From positions 4,473,812 to 4,537,811 of the forward strand of contig NZ_KE386491.1 of the NCBI RefSeq assembly GCF_000427405.1: a stretch of DNA of 64,000 nucleotides, given 5' to 3'. Below the pieces are notes generated by a model. That model searched no databases. It was not told the DNA's origin and saw only the letters and a list, made by a program, of their open reading frames with translations. This DNA comes from Flectobacillus major DSM 103. GTDB lineage: Bacteria > Bacteroidota > Bacteroidia > Cytophagales > Spirosomataceae. This document shows positions 53,289 to 62,134 of this stretch, one piece after another; positions within the stretch are counted from its first letter, which is position 1; the number at the start of each line of letters is the position of its first letter. Position numbers and translations under genes: made by a program.

Positions 53289-53807
53289 ATGTGTTTAAGT
53301 ACAAAATCTTCGTGTGACACCTTTGTGGAGGTAAATCGTACTTTTCCATTAATGATTGGTCTTGAATTTATGCGTCGCCCTGCAAAGCTGAGAGAAGATA
53401 TACTGCTTGAATACGATTGTATTGTGAAGAAATACAAAACATATCACTGGAATTTTGACCTATATTCATTCCGAGAATTTATCCAAAATCCTAGCCATGC
53501 TATTGTTATAACAGATATTCACCAAAAAATTCAGTGGGTCAACAACGGCTTTGTAAGTATGACAGGCTATCAGGCTATAGAAGCTTTAGATAAAACACCC
53601 AAATTTTTGCAAGGAAAAGAAACAAGGCAAGATGTTAGAAACCAAATAAGGCAGAGTATTGCAGCACAAAAAACCTTTTCTGGAGAAATTATCAACTATC
53701 GAAAAAATGGAGAAGCGTATTTGTGTTATGTAACCATCGAGCCGATTTTCAACAGAGATAACCAACTAGTAAATTTTATAGCATTTGAAGAAGCAATTGA
53801 GGTATAG
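53289..53807 (+). CDS. Single-domain PAS protein (LOV-like but without the photo-Cys)
   Basis: 172 residues. An N-terminal helical part (1-60) is followed by one PAS domain: AIVITDIHQKIQWVNNGFVSMTGY, then KTPKFLQGKETRQDVRNQIRQ, and INYRKNGEAYLCYVTIEPIF. The pattern resembles LOV photoreceptors, but the flavin-binding Cys of NCRFLQG is replaced by Pro104 (TPKFLQG), so it is unlikely to be light-sensing through a cysteinyl adduct. There is no output domain. Spacing (13 bases) puts it in the B12 operon. What it senses is unknown. Confidence 0.88.
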   Translation: MCLSTKSSCDTFVEVNRTFPLMIGLEFMRRPAKLREDILLEYDCIVKKYKTYHWNFDLYSFREFIQNPSHAIVITDIHQKIQWVNNGFVSMTGYQAIEALDKTPKFLQGKETRQDVRNQIRQSIAAQKTFSGEIINYRKNGEAYLCYVTIEPIFNRDNQLVNFIAFEEAIEV

Positions 53808-54632: not shown

Positions 54633-57305
54633 ATGAGTAAAACAGTAGTAAGTGCAGAAAAACTAAGATTAAAAACACGTTCCGACAACAAAGGATGGAA
54701 AAAATGGGGGCCATATTTGTCTGAACGCCAATGGGGTACAGTACGAGAGGACTATTCGCCAGGGCAAGATGCTTGGAACTGTGTCACACACGACATGGCT
54801 CGCTCAAAAGCATATCGTTGGGGCGAAGAAGGTATTGCGGGTATCTCAGACAACAAATCATATATCTGTTTTGCATTGTCATTTTGGAATCATAACGACC
54901 ACATTCTAAAGGAACGTTTTTTTGGCCTAACAGGCAATGAATCCAATCATGGTGAAGATGTCAAGGAGTTGTATTATTACTTGGACTCAACGCCTACGCA
55001 CTCATATATGAAGATGCTTTATAAGTATCCTCAAACGGCATTTCCTTATGCCAAACTTGTAGAGGAAAGTAGAAAACGTTCAAGGCTAGAACCCGAATAC
55101 GAAATCCTAGATACGGGTGTATTTGACAAAGACGAGTATTTCGATATTTTTGTAGAATATGCCAAATCGGATGAACAAGATATACTCATAAAAGTAACCG
55201 CTCATAATAGAAGCGACAAGCCAGCTCCTATTACTTTGCTTCCAACTATCTGGTTTAGAAATACTTGGTGTTGGGGCTACGACAACTTTAAGTACAAGCC
55301 TATGCTTACGGGTGTGTCGAACAAAGTAATTGAAGTCAACAACAAAAGTGTTGGTCATTATAAATTGTACTGTGAAAAAGCCGATGAATTGCTTTTTTGC
55401 GAAAACGAAACCAACTTTCAACGCCTTCATGGTGTTGCCAACAACACGCCTTATCCCAAAGATGGCATCAACGATTATATCGTTAATAAAAACAAAGCTG
55501 CCATCAATCCCAACAATATTGGTACAAAAGCTGCTGCCCGATACACCAGAGTGGTAAAACCTGGCGAAAGTGTAACTGTGCGTTTGCGTTTATCAGACCA
55601 TTCAAGCTCAGAACCATTTGGAGGTTTTGAAGATACCGTCGAGAAGAGAATCCGTGAAGCCAATCAGTTTTATGATGAACTACAAAAAGATGTAGATGAC
55701 CCTGAATTGAAAATGATTCAGCGTCAGGCTTATGCTGGAATGCTCTGGACAAAACAGTGGTATTATTATAATGTAAACGAGTGGATTGCTGGCGACCCAG
55801 CCATGCCAAAGCCCTCAGAACACCGTAAGTTTGGTCGAAATTCGGGCTGGCGACACATGTACGCAGCCAACATTCTTTCTATGCCCGACAAGTGGGAATA
55901 TCCATGGTTTGCTGCATGGGATTTGGCTTTTCACACAATTCCGTTGGCTCGTCTCGACCCCGATTTTGCCAAAAGACAATTAGCCGTTGTTTTGCGTGAA
56001 TATTATATGCACCCCAATGGCCAAATTCCTGCTTATGAGTGGTCGTTTTCGGATGTAAACCCTCCTGTACACGCTTGGGCTACTTGGAAGGTATATGAAA
56101 TCGATAAAGAAATGAATGGTAAAGGAGATGTAAATTTCCTTGAAAGAATTTTCCATAAATTATTACTCAACTTTACATGGTGGGTTAATCTCAAGGACGA
56201 AGGCGGAAATAATATCTTTGGTGGAGGTTTCCTTGGTATGGATAATATCGGGGTTTTTGACCGTTCGTCAACATTGCCAACAGGAGGGCGTTTGGAACAA
56301 GCCGACGGTACAGGCTGGATGGCTATGTATAGCCTCAACATGCTAAGAATTGCCTGCGAAATAGCAGTAGAGCGTCCTGTGTATCAGGATATGGCTTCTA
56401 AGTTTTTTGAACACTTCTTACATATTGCAGGAGCGATGCAGTCGATGGGTGGCTCAGATATTAGCCTTTGGGACGAAGAAGACCAGTTTTATTACGATAT
56501 GCTTCACTTGCCTAACTCGCAAAGTATGTTGTTGAAAATCAGATCGATGGTAGGCTTGATTCCATTGTTTGCTGTTGAGGTTTTGACACCCGAAATGCTG
56601 GAGAAATTACCAGATTTCAAGCGTCGTGTCGACTGGGTATTAACTAACCGCCCCGATTTGGCAGGCTTAATTTCTCGTTGGTATGAGTCGGGTAAAGGCG
56701 AAAACCGTCTTTTGGCGATTCTTAGAGGTCACCGAATGAAGATGATTATGAAAAGGATGTTTGATGAAAATGAATTTTTATCAGAACATGGTGTTCGTTC
56801 TTTGTCGAAATTCCACTTAGATAATCCATACCAATTTAGGGTTCATAACGAAGTCCTTCGAGTAGACTATACCCCAGCCGAATCAACAGGAAGTATGTTT
56901 GGGGGTAACTCCAACTGGCGAGGGCCTATCTGGATGCCAATGAATTTCCTATTGATTGACTCCCTGTTGAAGTTTCAATCATACTATGGCAACGACTACG
57001 AGGTAGAGTATCCAACCAACTCGGGTAATATGGTGAGTATCAAACATGCCGCTTTGAGCTTGGCCGACAGACTCATCAGAATATTTAGAGAAGATGAAAA
57101 CGGTCGTCGTCCGATGTACGAAAAATATGAAAAGATGCAAACCGACCCTCACTTCAAGGATTTACTATTATTTTATGAATACTTCCATGGCGACAACGGT
57201 AAAGGCTTAGGAGCAGCCCACCAAACAGGTTGGACAGGTCTAGTAGCTGAACTAATACTATCGGTAACAGTTGCTTCCAAATCGGAAATAAAAGAAGTGA
57301 TATAA
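54633..57305 (+). CDS. Glucosidase-like protein, GH63/MGH1 family
   Basis: 890 residues without a signal peptide, so probably cytoplasmic. The N-terminal about 330 residues are beta-rich (ERQWGTVREDYSPGQDAWNCVTHDMARSKAYRWGEEG), and the C-terminal (alpha/alpha)6 barrel has the GH63/mannosylglycerate-hydrolase-type blocks WAAWDLAFHTIPLARLDP, GQIPAYEWSFSDVNPPVHAWA and WRGPIWMPMNFLLIDSLLKF with Asp/Glu candidates for acid and base. It probably hydrolyses an alpha-glucoside or a compatible-solute glycoside. It is monocistronic and is closed by a long perfect hairpin. Confidence 0.9.
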   Translation: MSKTVVSAEKLRLKTRSDNKGWKKWGPYLSERQWGTVREDYSPGQDAWNCVTHDMARSKAYRWGEEGIAGISDNKSYICFALSFWNHNDHILKERFFGLTGNESNHGEDVKELYYYLDSTPTHSYMKMLYKYPQTAFPYAKLVEESRKRSRLEPEYEILDTGVFDKDEYFDIFVEYAKSDEQDILIKVTAHNRSDKPAPITLLPTIWFRNTWCWGYDNFKYKPMLTGVSNKVIEVNNKSVGHYKLYCEKADELLFCENETNFQRLHGVANNTPYPKDGINDYIVNKNKAAINPNNIGTKAAARYTRVVKPGESVTVRLRLSDHSSSEPFGGFEDTVEKRIREANQFYDELQKDVDDPELKMIQRQAYAGMLWTKQWYYYNVNEWIAGDPAMPKPSEHRKFGRNSGWRHMYAANILSMPDKWEYPWFAAWDLAFHTIPLARLDPDFAKRQLAVVLREYYMHPNGQIPAYEWSFSDVNPPVHAWATWKVYEIDKEMNGKGDVNFLERIFHKLLLNFTWWVNLKDEGGNNIFGGGFLGMDNIGVFDRSSTLPTGGRLEQADGTGWMAMYSLNMLRIACEIAVERPVYQDMASKFFEHFLHIAGAMQSMGGSDISLWDEEDQFYYDMLHLPNSQSMLLKIRSMVGLIPLFAVEVLTPEMLEKLPDFKRRVDWVLTNRPDLAGLISRWYESGKGENRLLAILRGHRMKMIMKRMFDENEFLSEHGVRSLSKFHLDNPYQFRVHNEVLRVDYTPAESTGSMFGGNSNWRGPIWMPMNFLLIDSLLKFQSYYGNDYEVEYPTNSGNMVSIKHAALSLADRLIRIFREDENGRRPMYEKYEKMQTDPHFKDLLLFYEYFHGDNGKGLGAAHQTGWTGLVAELILSVTVASKSEIKEVI

Positions 57306-57306
57306 T

Positions 57307-57360
57307 ATAACTAACAAAAAACGTCGATGATAAATGTCATCGACGTTTTTTGTTAGTTAT
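57307..57360. terminator. Perfect 24-bp hairpin after the GH63 gene
   Basis: Arms 57307-57330 and 57337-57360 with a 6-base loop TAAATG; core AACGTCGATGA, AT-rich feet. Strong terminator for the glucosidase and a clean boundary for the AT-rich operon downstream. Confidence 0.92.
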
Positions 57361-57407
57361 GAATTAGTAATGCTTTTGGGTAAGTAGACAAATGTTAAAA
57401 GAGTAGG

Positions 57408-57415
57408 TATATTTG
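57408..57415 (+). promoter_or_regulatory. -7 box of the ATPase/TOPRIM/DUF262 operon
   Basis: TATATTTG, exact TAnnTTTG match, 24 bases before the ATG of the first gene; no TTG at standard distance is seen. It follows the hairpin at 57307-57360, so the operon has its own promoter. Confidence 0.55.
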
Positions 57416-57439: not shown

Positions 57440-58651
57440 ATGGTTGCAAAAATAGCTTTTAAAAATTATAAAATCTTTAATAGCGTGCAAGTACTAGAGC
57501 TGGCTCCTATGACTATTTTAATAGGTAAAAATAGTTCTGGGAAAAGTGCTCTAGCAAAATTACCTACACTAATTTCTGGAAGTCTAAATGGTTTAGTTGA
57601 GGAACCATTCAGTTGGGAAAATGAAGGTGTGATATTAGGTAACGATTATTCTGATTTGAACTATGAAAAAGATACTACAGGAGAGTTTGAATTTAAGCTA
57701 GAACTCAAGGATAACGCTTTTTTACATATAGTGATATTATTTGGAGACTACAAATTAATTGTTCGTTCATGGAATTATAATGATGAGTTTAAAGTTCAAT
57801 ATCACATAAAAGAGAAGCTTTATTCCATCAATGACAGCACAAGGCTGTATGATTGTAGGTTTAAAGGTTTTTTACTGAAAAATATCATTGGTTTTGAAGG
57901 GGAAATTCCCAATGTAACTGATTTCAGTTTTGAATTTGATTATGTATGCTCATACAGGGTAGAACCGAAAGATATTAAAGAAGACCAACCGAAAGAAAAG
58001 AATATTAGAAAAGTTGGAATAGATGGCAAACACGCATACGAGATATTAATCAATGATGTTATTTATTCAGATGGCCAATTACTAAACAAAGTAAGCAATT
58101 GGTATAAAAAAGTATTCGAAAACTGGGAAGTGAATATAGACAGAGATACGTTGCGTAATAAATTTTACTTTGAACTAAAAAGGAATTCTCCAAGGTTTTT
58201 CAAGACCTCCTTAGTGAATGTAGGACAAGGTATGAGTCAAACTTTACCTTTAATCACAAAATCATTTATTGAAGAAGAAAAACCTTCTCTTACAATTATA
58301 GAAGAACCAGAATTACACTTACATCCTTCTGCTCATGGTGATTTAGCTGAACGATTTGTAGAATCTTTAATTGATACCAATAAAAGATATTTGATTGAAA
58401 CACATTCTGAGAACTTTATTCTAAGATTAAGGCGTTTAATCGCTGAAAGTAAATATCCATACTTTACGGAAGAAAATCTTAAAATCTATTATGTTGATTA
58501 TGACGAAGATTTGAATGAGAGTTCTTTGAGAGATATTAAAGTTGATTCCCTTGGTGAGGTATATGATTGGCCTGATGGTATTTTTAGTGATAGTTTTGAT
58601 GAAGTTTTTGCAATAAGGAAAGCTCAAAAATTAAAGAAAGATGTTGGTTGA
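57440..58651 (+). CDS. ABC/OLD-type AAA ATPase, first gene of candidate defence operon
   Basis: 403 residues, soluble. Walker A GKNSSGKS (29-36) in ILIGKNSSGKSALAKLP, an ABC-like signature VNVGQGMSQ (259-267), Walker B LTIIEEPELHLHP (284-296), and an H-loop in ETHSE (320-324). This is the RecF/SMC/OLD type of ATPase found in many anti-phage systems (for example AriA of PARIS, OLD/Gabija, AbiL). It has no nuclease domain of its own; the next gene, overlapping by 11 bases, seems to supply it. The coding sequence is clearly richer in A and T than the glucosidase gene before it, consistent with acquisition. The family is firm; the biological role is inferred. Confidence 0.87.
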   Translation: MVAKIAFKNYKIFNSVQVLELAPMTILIGKNSSGKSALAKLPTLISGSLNGLVEEPFSWENEGVILGNDYSDLNYEKDTTGEFEFKLELKDNAFLHIVILFGDYKLIVRSWNYNDEFKVQYHIKEKLYSINDSTRLYDCRFKGFLLKNIIGFEGEIPNVTDFSFEFDYVCSYRVEPKDIKEDQPKEKNIRKVGIDGKHAYEILINDVIYSDGQLLNKVSNWYKKVFENWEVNIDRDTLRNKFYFELKRNSPRFFKTSLVNVGQGMSQTLPLITKSFIEEEKPSLTIIEEPELHLHPSAHGDLAERFVESLIDTNKRYLIETHSENFILRLRRLIAESKYPYFTEENLKIYYVDYDEDLNESSLRDIKVDSLGEVYDWPDGIFSDSFDEVFAIRKAQKLKKDVG

Positions 58652-59678
58652 AATTCTACAAGATATTTTCAGAGACGAAGCTAATAATGAGCTATTAGAC
58701 CAAATATATTTTCTGTTAGGAGAAAAACACAAACTATTGATAAGAGAAGACGACGATATTGAAGCCCTAATGGAGTCGAGCTGGTATAATAGTATGAAGC
58801 CATCATATCAGAAGACTATTGAAGAGTCTATTGTCTGGTCAATAAACAACTCTACAAAAACGCCTCAATGTATAATTTCTGGACAACCCAATGTAGCATA
58901 TTTTGGCTTGGCAGAAGCAATAAAATATTTAGAGCAACCTTTTACCATCCTTATTGAAAATCGCTTGAATGATGCTCCATTTCTTGACTGTTTGATAAAG
59001 CATTTCCCAAAGGAAAGTAAAATGATAAAGTTATTTAAGGATGAGCGGTGGTTGAAATATGGAATGGGAGGAGGTAGCACTATTTTGCAAGAAATAGAAG
59101 CAGAATTAGAAACCTTTGAAAACCCTATTTTTATCAAAGCTAAACACAAATATTTGCGATATTTTGTACTTATTGATAGTGATAAGAAGTATCCTGAAAT
59201 GAGTTTAAGTACTGAAAAATTAAAAAACAAAGCACTACTTGATAAATACGAAATTCCGTATCATATTTTAGAAAAACGGGAAATGGAAAACTATCTTCCC
59301 GATGAAGCTTTTGATGGTATAACAGATAATCAAGATTTCATTAAAGCATATCTTGCCTTAACCTCTATTCAGAAGGATTTTTTTGATTTAGAAAAAGGAT
59401 TTGATGGTAAAAAGTTTGATAAACTTTTACCCGAAGAAAGGATATTTTACGAATCATTGAATGACTCTCAAAAAGATATATTTCGCAATAATAATCTCAA
59501 AAGAATAAATGGTTCGACTATTGAAAACTTCAAAACAAGCTTTCCAAAGCTGTTTTCTTCAGCTAAAGTAACCAAAATCAATTTGCTTAAAAGATGTGAA
59601 CACCATTCTGAAATTGACTCCCCAAAAGACAAAAAAGAATTACAAAATTTATTAAGTAAAATCAATCAATTACTATGA
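58641..59678 (+). CDS. TOPRIM-like protein, second gene of candidate defence operon
   Basis: 345 residues, no signal. Not firmly recognised. It has features that fit a TOPRIM/DUF4435-type nuclease: an early acidic strand-turn ILIENRLNDAPFLDCLI (Glu106), the D-x-D strand FVLIDSD (Asp179, Asp181), then KREMENYLP (212-220), a pattern found near the end of TOPRIM domains in OLD-type and AriB-type proteins. A GGGS turn lies at 143-146. It overlaps the ATPase stop by 11 bases and ends in a 4-base ATGA overlap with the DUF262 gene, so expression is coupled. Catalysis is inferred, not shown. Confidence 0.72.
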   Translation: MLVEILQDIFRDEANNELLDQIYFLLGEKHKLLIREDDDIEALMESSWYNSMKPSYQKTIEESIVWSINNSTKTPQCIISGQPNVAYFGLAEAIKYLEQPFTILIENRLNDAPFLDCLIKHFPKESKMIKLFKDERWLKYGMGGGSTILQEIEAELETFENPIFIKAKHKYLRYFVLIDSDKKYPEMSLSTEKLKNKALLDKYEIPYHILEKREMENYLPDEAFDGITDNQDFIKAYLALTSIQKDFFDLEKGFDGKKFDKLLPEERIFYESLNDSQKDIFRNNNLKRINGSTIENFKTSFPKLFSSAKVTKINLLKRCEHHSEIDSPKDKKELQNLLSKINQLL

Positions 59679-61345
59679 GTTCATTAATCAGTTTAAAACC
59701 ATCAAATAATAAGTTTGAAACTTATCTGAAGGGTATTAATTCGGGATTATTACAAATTCCAGAGTTTCAACGTGATTTTGTTTGGGAGCTTGACAATGTA
59801 CTCAACTTGTTAAATAGTATTAAAAAAAATTACCCCATCGGTTCATTTTTATTTTGGACTCCAGAAACAGAATTTAGAATAGCAAAACAGGTAGGCCCTT
59901 ATTTTATTAAAGAATCTATTTTTGAAGCTTTTGAAAAAAGACAACGAAAATATATTTTGGATGGCTATCAAAGAATGTCTGCGTTATTTGGTGTACTCTC
60001 TAATCCTGAAACGATTGTAAACTTCACATTGGACGAGAAGTTATTTAATTCCAAATTTAATATTTATTATAATCTTGATTCTGAACGGTTTGAGGTATTC
60101 GACCGTAATATTGAAATTTATTGTGTTCCCGCTTATATCTTATTGGATTTCGAATCTTTTCTAACTCACTCAGAAAAAATACAAAGAGAATATTCTCCTG
60201 AACTCTCAAAAAGTTACACAGGTAGGCTAAAAAAAATTGTCACCACTTTTAATAATTACGAAATGCCCGTAATTGAGATAGCTGGCGGAACATTGGATGA
60301 AGCGATAGATATATTTACATTACTCAATAAAGAAGGCAAGCCCATAACACCCGATTGGATATTGTCGGCTAAAACTTATACAGATAACTTTAGATTGGGC
60401 GATAAAATTGATGGTGTTCTCGACCAAATAGAGAAATATAATTTTATTGATAACAAACCAAGAGAAGTAGCGGTAAGAGATTTAGTTTTTAGAAGTATTC
60501 AAAGCTCATTTGGAGATTTATATTTAGACAATAAAAAAACAGATATTATTTCCCTTTCTAAAAAAGAAAACTTTCAAAGTCAAATAGAAATTACCGTAAA
60601 AAGTATAGAGCGTGTGGCTAAATTTTTATTTGAAGAACTCTTAATTGTTGACAATAAACTATTACCCGCTAATATCCAGTTTATCTTTTTGGTAGAGTTT
60701 TTTAACCACATTCCCGAACCTAATAGTCAGCAAATAGAAAAGCTAAAACAATGGTTTTGGGTTACAACATATTCCAATTATTTTACAGTTTTTAGTCCCA
60801 GCAAAAGAAAAACCGCCTTTCAGCATTTTCAAAAATTTATAAAAAATGTCGACCTAAACCCTGTCTATAGCGATAGACCTGAGCTACCATTTGTTGTGCC
60901 TGCGTTGTCTGATAAAGTAAACTTAGGTTCAGTGCGTTCAAAAGCTCATATTTTGTTTATGTTGAATTATTCAAATGGATTCAATTCTGTAGATACGGAG
61001 TTTGTGGAAGACTATAAAATTTTAAAGCTATTTTCTGAAACTAAAATTTCATCTGATTTAGGAGAAAGTGCAAATATGGTAGTATGTCTAAATAAAACTA
61101 CTGATAATGTATTTATCCAGTCGGGGAAAAAAACCAACGACTTATCCTTCATGCTTGCTCAGGAAAATAAAGGAAGATATTCAGAGTATTTTATTACAGA
61201 TGAAATGAGAGATGAATATTTAAAGGGTAATCTGGAAAAAGTATTTGAATTAAGAAAGACGTTGATTACTGAGAAGGAACGAGCTTTTGTAGAGAAATTA
61301 GGGGTAGATTATGATAGACGATTTCAACTATTTGAAACAATATAG
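59675..61345 (+). CDS. DUF262 (GmrS/ParB-like) protein, third gene of candidate defence operon
   Basis: 556 residues. The DUF262 motifs are IPEFQRDFVWE (28-38) and ILDGYQRMSAL (94-104), the latter normally DGQQR; the Gln-to-Tyr change is unusual. The block FTLLNKEGKPITPDWILSAKTY matches the family. Residues 380-556 are mostly helical, without an obvious HNH (DUF1524) motif, so it is the GmrS-like NTPase part only. DUF262 proteins occur in type IV restriction (GmrSD, BrxU, SspE) and act on modified or foreign DNA. Here it is translationally coupled to the TOPRIM-like gene (ATGA overlap). Confidence 0.88.
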   Translation: MSSLISLKPSNNKFETYLKGINSGLLQIPEFQRDFVWELDNVLNLLNSIKKNYPIGSFLFWTPETEFRIAKQVGPYFIKESIFEAFEKRQRKYILDGYQRMSALFGVLSNPETIVNFTLDEKLFNSKFNIYYNLDSERFEVFDRNIEIYCVPAYILLDFESFLTHSEKIQREYSPELSKSYTGRLKKIVTTFNNYEMPVIEIAGGTLDEAIDIFTLLNKEGKPITPDWILSAKTYTDNFRLGDKIDGVLDQIEKYNFIDNKPREVAVRDLVFRSIQSSFGDLYLDNKKTDIISLSKKENFQSQIEITVKSIERVAKFLFEELLIVDNKLLPANIQFIFLVEFFNHIPEPNSQQIEKLKQWFWVTTYSNYFTVFSPSKRKTAFQHFQKFIKNVDLNPVYSDRPELPFVVPALSDKVNLGSVRSKAHILFMLNYSNGFNSVDTEFVEDYKILKLFSETKISSDLGESANMVVCLNKTTDNVFIQSGKKTNDLSFMLAQENKGRYSEYFITDEMRDEYLKGNLEKVFELRKTLITEKERAFVEKLGVDYDRRFQLFETI

Positions 61346-61444: not shown

Positions 61445-62134
61445 TCACAGGATTACCTCATCGATTTTTTGATAGATTTTGTCCCATGTTTTGTTATCAA
61501 TATTAAAACCATGATTGGTGTCTACAAAAAATAATTCTATGTTGGGACTAAACTTGTATTGATCCTTTATCTCTATACCGCCATATTCATCATGGATTCC
61601 CTGAATAATTAACATGGGTGTTTTGAGGTGTTCTAAATGAAGGTATCTTTCAGGCTCAACGCCATTATTGGGGTTTTGAAATGGATAACCCAAACAAATG
61701 ATATGTTTAATATCTAAGTCATCGGCAATCAAAGATGCAACTCGTCCGCCCGACGACCTTGAGATAATGATTACTTCGTTTTTAGCACTTAGGTATTCAA
61801 TTCTTTTCTTTAATTTTTTACAGCGAAGTTTTATATCATTTCCATTTCTTTCTAAAAATTGTTCATACAAATAGATAAAATAACTCCAATGCGTAATAGC
61901 GTAAAGTAATTGAACAAGTCTAAGATTGATTTTCTTGACAATATTGGGTAAAGTTTGAAAATGAAATTCAATCGAGCGAAGCCGATGGGTAAGGTTTCCT
62001 GCAGGGTCTTCCCAAACAATTGGCAGGTGTTTTCTTTTGGTATAGTTAACTAAAACGTGGTTTAGGTTAGTATCTTTTTGCCAATCGTCACGACCAGCAA
62101 ATAAAAAAATCTTATTGACGGATTTTTTTGACAT
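61445..62134 (-). CDS. Alpha/beta hydrolase, Tex30/dienelactone-hydrolase-like
   Basis: 229 residues. Nucleophile elbow region VIIISRSSGGRVASLIADDL (S-R-S-S-G-G, a variant G-x-S-x-G), acid residue in QGIHDEYGG, and catalytic His in VDTNHGFNID. These make a complete Ser-Asp-His set. A middle stretch of aromatic and basic residues (about 70-110) forms the cap. No signal peptide. The coding sequence is AT-rich, like the three-gene operon on the other strand, which converges on it at 61345. It may be a cargo gene of the same acquired region, or an independent gene; the substrate is unknown. Confidence 0.78.
   Translation of the reverse strand: MSKKSVNKIFLFAGRDDWQKDTNLNHVLVNYTKRKHLPIVWEDPAGNLTHRLRSIEFHFQTLPNIVKKINLRLVQLLYAITHWSYFIYLYEQFLERNGNDIKLRCKKLKKRIEYLSAKNEVIIISRSSGGRVASLIADDLDIKHIICLGYPFQNPNNGVEPERYLHLEHLKTPMLIIQGIHDEYGGIEIKDQYKFSPNIELFFVDTNHGFNIDNKTWDKIYQKIDEVIL

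Follow-up and report, generated by a model that had tools for sequence, protein, structure and literature searches.

A PDC-M55-type operon of an OLD-type ATPase, a TOPRIM-like protein and a DUF262 protein in Flectobacillus major, with a middle gene that appears to be exchanged

Three overlapping plus-strand genes, here called A, B and C, lie within the window (the whole 64-kb stretch of Flectobacillus major DSM 103 DNA that was analysed) and raise the question of whether they form an anti-phage system and, if so, what each of them contributes and to which known system they are related. The original prediction read them as an undescribed unit of an ATPase, a TOPRIM-like protein and a DUF262 protein with an anti-phage role. 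Our sequence comparisons support both the unit and the anti-phage reading, although the TOPRIM assignment is unproven and a kinship to the Menshen system had been missed. The word "undescribed" held in part, since the trio is already present in PADLOC as PDC-M55A/B/C, while no named, tested equivalent was found; what is new here is the TOPRIM reading of B, the Menshen kinship and the exchange of B.

Layout of the locus and its three products

The coordinates and lengths of the genes were reproduced (Table 1), with products of 403 (A), 345 (B) and 556 (C) amino acids, an A/B overlap of 11 bases (58641-58651) and a B/C overlap of 4 bases, ATGA (59675-59678), and every motif quoted earlier was found in the gene to which it had been assigned. 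The trio is indeed AT-rich, its G+C content being 0.309 in each gene vs 0.418 in the preceding glucosidase gene and 0.379 in the window. The strong hairpin is also there; it separates the trio from the glucosidase gene and is probably a terminator. The TAnnTTTG box was present as well, but it is weak evidence alone, because the window holds 120 TANNTTTG boxes when 90 are expected from shuffles.

Table 1. Features of the trio locus, in positions of the window.
Feature	Position	Strand	Remarks
Hairpin	57290..57377	.	Inverted repeat, 41-nt arms, 80% complementary, with T run
TATATTTG, possible Bacteroidota -7 box	57408..57415	+	24 bases upstream of gene A start codon
Gene A, AAA_15/OLD-type ATPase, DUF3696-like tail	57440..58651	+	Pfam, PADLOC PDC-M55A, NsnB-like
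Tract in which window and congener G003 differ (all B plus end of A)	58500..59690	+	Flanks mostly 0.8-1.0 DNA identity
Gene B, probable TOPRIM nuclease, putatively exchanged subunit	58641..59678	+	PADLOC PDC-M55B, AlphaFold2 model, conserved residues
Gene C, DUF262 (GmrSD_N) NTPase-type protein	59675..61345	+	Pfam, PADLOC PDC-M55C, Foldseek

The one locus matches PDC-M55A, PDC-M55B and PDC-M55C with its A, B and C proteins, respectively (2.6e-79, 5.8e-28 and 1.7e-74). Protein A carries the motifs GKNSSGKS at A29, VNVGQG at A259 and LTIIEEPE at A284, its residues G29, K30, K35, T321 and H322 are kept in 18/18 rows (window included), and its Pfam matches are AAA_15 (5e-19), AAA_21 (8.5e-12) and DUF3696 (1.6e-4); the Pfam scan found no nuclease family in it. 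Further PADLOC matches of A are to NsnB (2.6e-48), AriA (2.1e-19) and AbiLi (1.9e-11). Protein C has IPEFQRD at C28 and LDGYQR at C95, with D96, G97, Q99 and R100 kept in all 20 rows (window included); its one Pfam family is GmrSD_N (8e-26), and Foldseek matches it to BrxU (7p9k, 2.5e-11) and SspE (3.2e-4). The DUF1524 nuclease domain was absent from the 12 C proteins scanned, in all of which GmrSD_N was the sole Pfam family at E <= 0.01, thus leaving B as the only candidate nuclease found.

Protein B is a probable nucleic-acid cutter of the TOPRIM nuclease type, as judged from its predicted structure and its conserved residues. Its motifs are IENRLND at B105, IDSD at B178 and KREMENY at B212, and the AlphaFold2 model (pLDDT 88.8) places a Glu directly after strand 101-105 and a DxD directly after strand 174-178, as in the TOPRIM pattern, where the Glu follows strand 1 and the DxD follows strand 3. 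Model and alignment together give the TOPRIM order E-GG-DxD-EN(Y) and the TOPRIM strand topology, and E106, D179, D181 and E216-N217-Y218 are invariant in all 19 rows, the window's among them. Residues 85-230 align in register with an RloB profile built from 12 of 18 RloB matches (one row was left out for its wrong reading frame), a weak match (p 0.005, HHalign probability 7%), and likewise weakly with DUF4435 (p 0.008); seven other segments gave p 0.12-0.73 against RloB, reference RloB against DUF4435 gave p 0.015, and whole-length B against smaller DUF4435 sets gave p 0.17 and 0.066.

Foldseek returned no significant fold match for B in PDB or BFVD: the best match was GajA (E 0.25, TM 0.17, rmsd 17, a poor superposition), and the highest TM-scores among the 50 matches listed belonged to an RloB-like protein (0.31/0.44, E 1.0). 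Sequence searches of B against Pfam and PDB yielded no match to TOPRIM, and NCBIfam gave no usable match; a PDB search aimed at AriB, with a DUF4435 protein as query, found nothing. Matches of B to a phasin (0.032) and to dihydrodipicolinate synthase (0.08) were judged to be due to chance. The TOPRIM assignment of the second gene is thus supported by the model and the conserved acidic residues but not proven, Foldseek being not significant and the profile matches weak.

Divergence of gene B between conserved neighbours

The main result, and an unexpected one, is that B seems to have been swapped between operon copies that have nearly the same A and C. Between the window and its congener G003, A is 86% identical, B 35% and C 74-87%. 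B was the lowest in all four pairs in which complete A proteins are at least 60% identical, the B/A/C identities being 86/96/91, 53/92/96, 35/86/74-87 and 35/61/72%. The divergence extends to the tail of A (residues 336-403), which adjoins B and is 62% and 75% identical vs 86-95% elsewhere, and in the window/G003 pair the C-terminal third of C diverges too. Over all 105 pairs of sets having full A, B and C, B is moderately less conserved (means 46.5 for A, 36.9 for B and 43.5 for C), and it is the lowest in 89 of them; the frameshifted C of L026 was compared in two pieces.

Trees were built leaving out A rows shorter than 330 aa (L006, L010, L014) and B rows shorter than 300 aa (L011, L012). 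The A tree joins the window with G003 and L013 with L032, each at 100/100, and sisterhood of the corresponding B proteins was rejected (AU p 2.8e-6 and p 0.0035, respectively), p values that are optimistic because the clades were chosen after the identities and the tree were known. In the pair formed by two vibrios, seven proteins were compared: five of them are 92-98% identical (HsdM 97, HsdR 98, A 92 and C 96.5% among the operon proteins), and divergence is confined to HsdS (44%) and B (52.5%). The B proteins of these vibrios stay sisters (91/88), so that fast divergence could account for that pair.

Distribution and proposed function

The trio appears from these comparisons to be a rare, sporadically distributed and horizontally moved operon. 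A was detected at E <= 1e-40 in 10 of 222 family genomes (source genome included), and B and then C follow it in 10/10; it was found in 2 of 395 sampled phylum genomes, and C in 2 of 329 Vibrio-family genomes, which are L007 and L008 themselves. The order A-B-C is kept, beyond what chance would give, in all 21 trio sets (the window, nine family loci and 11 loci found by B), some of them with a broken or cut gene. The ATGA overlap of B and C is seen in 17 of 20 readable sets, being absent in L006, L015 and L032; L012, whose B is broken, stands outside this count.

The congener carries its copy on a contig other than that of its nadA, beside which lie other genes. In the two vibrios the trio is joined to a type I R-M operon, where hsdM-hsdS come first and A shares a single base with the hsdR end, and in three further loci an MkoC, Type IV or GmrSD-like neighbour adjoins the trio; the Bacteroidota neighbours, by contrast, are mostly housekeeping-like by eye. 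We scanned 10 of 172 neighbour ORFs, hand-picked from 5 of 20 loci, eight of which had a match, and no defence-island statistic is claimed because these were picked by eye. Three plasmid records contain B; the trio lies on plasmids of Leclercia and Paracoccus, and recombinases adjoin it in the three regions read. Viral contigs yielded two relatives with C as query, one of which (L071) carries all three genes, and none with A or B as query; phage records gave no B, and E. coli genomes gave no C-like DNA with either a Vibrio or a Leclercia query.

We consider it rather probable that the trio is a PDC-M55-type anti-phage operon, sister to Menshen, in which A and C gate B, a TOPRIM-like nuclease of fast turnover, and in which the outcome is abortive. 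The ATPase A and the DUF262 NTPase C would assemble into a complex that does the sensing and gating and keeps B inactive; an infection cue would shift the nucleotide state of A/C and release or activate B, which would then cut RNA or DNA and stop the growth of the phage and probably of the cell too, by analogy with AriA and AriB in PARIS. Turnover of B would be fastest since phages may escape its target or block it, and B variants would therefore be swapped in by recombination between the conserved A and C. A tentative extension, which we hold as a serious possibility, is a modular immune device, with a conserved ATPase/DUF262 chassis and an exchangeable TOPRIM cartridge, such that the sequence of B would predict the phages stopped or which RNA or DNA is cut. 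Recombination between A and C would then bring in B proteins with new targets or with new immunity to phage inhibitors, much as hsdS is exchanged in type I R-M, and Menshen, where NsnC is likewise diverse, could represent another device built on this chassis.

The parallel with HsdS can also be taken literally, B being a recognition subunit that decides which phage or DNA feature is sensed, with the killing done by A or C. In the Vibrio operon B does diverge as HsdS does, and the divergent A tail and C-terminal third of C are what an interface with B would give; however, the divergence of the A tail, which lies next to B, is also explained by a recombination tract, the invariant TOPRIM-type acidic set of B is expected of an enzyme, and neither a DUF1524 domain in C nor a nuclease family in A was found, and we regard this role for B as unlikely. 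Still less likely is a toxin-antitoxin-like or plasmid-stability element with no phage target: A matches AAA_21, an AbiEii-type ATPase family, and the plasmid copies lie beside recombinases, but immunity agrees better with three genes that include a DUF262 member, with the linkage to R-M operons and with a single subunit that turns over. OLD-type ATPases are also found in roles other than defence, and a housekeeping function in DNA repair might be thought of; yet 212 of 222 family genomes gave no match to A at E <= 1e-40 and the trio occupies different sites in congeners, which makes such a function highly improbable. 

The operons offer natural matched pairs (window/G003 and the two vibrios) that have similar ATPase and DUF262 genes, the TOPRIM-like gene being the main difference. 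Many defence systems contain TOPRIM nucleases, among them OLD, Gabija, retrons, AbiL, MADS and PARIS, and PMC12409363 poses the diversification of AriB to escape phages as an open question; the matched pairs would allow a direct test of TOPRIM diversification against phages. In addition, an uncharacterised catalogue entry is placed beside Menshen and a division of work among its three parts is suggested.

Comparison with known defence systems

All three proteins match PADLOC PDC-M55, which is a catalogue entry only, and no named, tested system equal to the trio was found; the PDC candidates are putative systems, most of them without validation according to PMC12988326. Literature searches that covered Menshen, MADS, HEC, DUF262+DUF3696 and PDC-M55 as well as the trio itself found, in titles, the beginnings of abstracts and passages, no experiment on the trio, and the name PDC-M55 was absent from the main texts of the papers searched.

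The nearest named system is Menshen, of which the trio may be a sister with a TOPRIM-like nuclease as third subunit. A is homologous to NsnB (profile match 99.9%), C is distantly NsnA-like, with weak NsnA matches (1.2e-11 and 7.6e-8) in two of four C proteins scanned, and the third subunit, NsnC there and B here, is the diverse one in both. That the trio is simply an ordinary Menshen system seems improbable, however, and full membership was rejected because B matches no NsnC model (at least 16 exist in PADLOC; 10 B proteins scanned) and compares at 0.1% with a set of eight diverse NsnC proteins drawn from 10 phylum matches. No E/DxD set was seen by eye in these eight, and four NsnC proteins had no Pfam match; three NsnC proteins match 16 different PADLOC NsnC models, whereas NsnA and NsnB were each represented by one model among the matches, a parallel to the diversity of B. 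Searches of the source genome with one NsnA and one NsnC model gave no match; the NsnC model found none in control genomes either, yet matched in 9 of 395 phylum genomes. The PDC-M55 profiles give much higher scores, NsnA precedes and NsnC follows NsnB in 3/3 Menshen loci checked, unlike A-B-C with C last, and C has 556 aa vs 385 profile positions of NsnA. According to a review (PMC10952713), one component of Menshen contains a TOPRIM domain of the OLD type, a statement that favours membership and is hard to reconcile with the NsnC set examined.

The trio shares the DUF262 fold and the DGxQR motif of C with GmrSD, BrxU and SspE, C differing in that no DUF1524 nuclease domain was found. With AbiL and RloA-RloB it shares an AbiLi-like ATPase and a probable RloB-like TOPRIM protein in register with RloB, although the B-RloB match is weak and the trio adds a DUF262 gene. 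Finally, PARIS, composed of the AriA ATPase and the AriB TOPRIM tRNase, differs in that none of the 10 B proteins scanned matched an AriB model in PADLOC; the likeness lies in an AriA-related ATPase standing beside a TOPRIM-type protein, to which the trio adds an extra DUF262 subunit.

A catalogued candidate operon and its setting

Genes A, B and C (the trio) were originally predicted to form an undescribed anti-phage operon; since their products match all three components of the PADLOC putative defence candidate PDC-M55 (PDC-M55A, 2.6e-79; PDC-M55B, 5.8e-28; PDC-M55C, 1.7e-74), the trio is already a known candidate. PMC12988326 describes such candidates as putative, obtained by a guilt-by-embedding approach and mostly without experimental validation. 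In the open-licence journal papers searched we found neither the name PDC-M55 nor an experimental test of the trio.

Coordinates of the trio and associated features (in the window unless a locus is named)
Feature	Coordinates	Strand	Product or match
Gene A	57440-58651	+	ATPase
Gene B	58641-59678	+	Predicted TOPRIM-like
Gene C	59675-61345	+	GmrSD_N (DUF262)
Hydrolase gene	61445-62134		Alpha/beta hydrolase
Small protein	53289-53807		PAS/LOV-like
Chryseobacterium neighbour	L013:10889-13906		MkoC-type (Mokosh), 2.5e-299
Colwellia bin neighbour	L014:10713-13940		Type IV restriction enzyme, 1.7e-214
Cognaticolwellia neighbours	L010:2766-6340		Two DUF262-type proteins (HEC-06/Orf5/SspE-like)
Leclercia plasmid gene B	L063:3217-4935		Interrupted by IS1
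RloB gene, window's genome (L073)	G000:C6:2166249-2166824		PF13707, 1.0e-45

As first noticed, A and B overlap by 11 bases and B and C by 4, a strong hairpin precedes the trio, and each of the three genes is AT-richer than the gene ahead of the trio (G+C 0.309 vs 0.418). The trio is flanked by a glucosidase gene and nadA, with an AT-rich (0.335) hydrolase gene before nadA that was perhaps inserted together with it. In one congener (G001) the glucosidase gene and nadA enclose other genes; in another (G003) these adjoin nadA and the trio lies on a different contig. Elsewhere in the window, a small PAS/LOV-like protein has an FLQG motif without the preceding photoactive Cys, and TANNTTTG, a possible -7 box before gene A, is commoner than expected over the whole window (120 vs 90, sd 9.6, in shuffles).

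Of 222 genomes in the window's family, 10 carry gene A (E <= 1e-40), as do 2 of 395 sampled phylum genomes (E <= 1e-45), the window's genome counted in both; C was detected in 2 of 329 Vibrio-family genomes (E <= 1e-80), the two vibrios already known. The three genes do co-occur, B and then C following A in 10/10 family genomes found with A alone; the trio is also present at 11 loci found with B, in one of which (L006) a contig end cuts A. Relatives, several of them metagenome bins, occur in Bacteroidota, Vibrio and Colwelliaceae, on Leclercia and Paracoccus plasmids and on one viral contig, and a Nonomuraea record holds B and C. After the Chryseobacterium trio lies an MkoC-type gene, and a Type IV restriction gene follows that of the Colwellia bin; in Cognaticolwellia two DUF262-type genes directly precede the trio, thus placing three DUF262 genes close together. 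The Leclercia plasmid with the interrupted B and a sister plasmid with an uninterrupted one encode identical C proteins.

Predicted functions of the three proteins

Gene A matched AAA_15, AAA_21 and, weakly, DUF3696 in Pfam. The AlphaFold2 model of C (pLDDT 84) matched BrxU (2.5e-11) and SspE (3.2e-4) in Foldseek, and residues D96, G97, Q99 and R100 are kept in 20/20 rows. GmrSD and BrxU have a DUF1524 nuclease half, whereas none was found in C, GmrSD_N being the sole Pfam family in 12/12 C proteins; this leaves B as the only candidate nuclease.

Gene B has no match in Pfam. Its model (pLDDT 88.8, AlphaFold2 with 10 sequences) predicts the order strand 101-105, E106, helix, strand 138-142, helix, strand 174-178, D179-S-D181, helix, strand 207-209, which is the TOPRIM order of strands, helices and acidic residues, and E106, D179, S180, D181, R213, E216, N217 and Y218 are kept in 19/19 rows, window included. 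B residues 85-230 compared with 12 RloB proteins gave p 0.005 (HHalign probability 7%), the E, G and DxD positions lining up, against 0.12-0.73 for six other trio parts and NsnC; RloB vs DUF4435 gave p 0.015, and whole B against small DUF4435 sets was weaker (p 0.17 and 0.066). Foldseek returned nothing significant, either in the PDB (best GajA, E 0.25, poor superposition, TM 0.17) or in BFVD, where an RloB-like protein had the top TM (0.31/0.44, E 1.0) among the 50 matches listed. We read B as very probably TOPRIM-like. A separate RloB gene in the window's genome is possibly part of an AbiL-type pair.

Divergence of gene B between close relatives

Between the window and G003, A is 86% identical over 397 aa and C, compared in two pieces as the G003 gene is frameshifted, 87% over residues 1-205 and 74% over 186-549; B is 35% identical over 325 aa. 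In 60-base steps, DNA identity mostly runs at 0.8-1.0 through A as far as 58500, drops to 0.25-0.78 over the length of B and stands at 0.95 starting from 59685; it is lower once more in the final third of C. The A tree joins window and G003 at 100/100; in the B tree the window groups with L005 (98/98), and G003 clusters with L032 and L029 (97/94). For groups named after the data were seen, forcing together B of window and G003 (lnL 56 worse, p 2.8e-6), B of L013 and L032 (p 0.0035; their A proteins pair at 100/100) or A of window and L005 (p 5.3e-6) was rejected. Close pairs are few (4 whose complete A proteins reach 60% identity or above) and were picked after the data were seen; the fourth, L033/L034, has A/B/C identities of 96/86/91. 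B is the lowest of the three in 89 of 105 full pairs (mean identity A 46.5, B 36.9, C 43.5), and in two pairs the A tail (336-403) diverges along with B (62%, 75%).

In the two vibrios hsdR and A share one base, at the end of hsdR, and identities are 96.9% for an upstream 356-residue protein, 96.7% for HsdM, 44.0% for HsdS (168 aa), 98.1% for HsdR, and 92.3, 52.5 and 96.5% for A, B and C; the B/C edge falls no more than about 100 bases from where C starts (90-base resolution). Since these two B proteins are still sisters (91/88), B could there have been exchanged within a close pool or could have diverged fast.

Comparison with Menshen and PARIS

A is homologous to NsnB of Menshen (2.6e-48 in PADLOC; profile match 99.9%), and 2 of 4 scanned C proteins matched NsnA (1.2e-11, 7.6e-8). 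The trio as a full Menshen system was rejected, as none of 10 B proteins matched an NsnC model in PADLOC and B against eight NsnC proteins reached 0.1% in profile comparison; one NsnC model had no match in the window's own genome, yet matched in 9/395 phylum genomes. The trio is therefore best read as a third part of another kind on a Menshen-like chassis. According to the review PMC10952713, one Menshen component has a TOPRIM domain, which counts against this view; none was found in the NsnC proteins examined. The three Menshen loci checked have the end of NsnA ahead of NsnB and NsnC behind it. Three NsnC proteins (L036, L041 and L045) matched 16 different NsnC models, the minimum number that PADLOC has for NsnC, against one NsnA and one NsnB model among the matches listed: in Menshen as in the trio the diversity lies in the third subunit, which may be exchanged or fast-evolving like B.

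In PARIS, according to PMC12409363, the AriA ATPase keeps the TOPRIM tRNase AriB sequestered until it senses a phage protein, and the question is posed there whether AriB faces pressure to diversify its specificity and so escape phages. The exchange of B between otherwise similar operons is an outcome that such pressure would bring about, but a changing sensor surface would yield the same pattern in B. By analogy we infer a trigger and a target for B, and a step at which A and C, which would together hold B as AriA holds AriB, would release or activate it upon infection.
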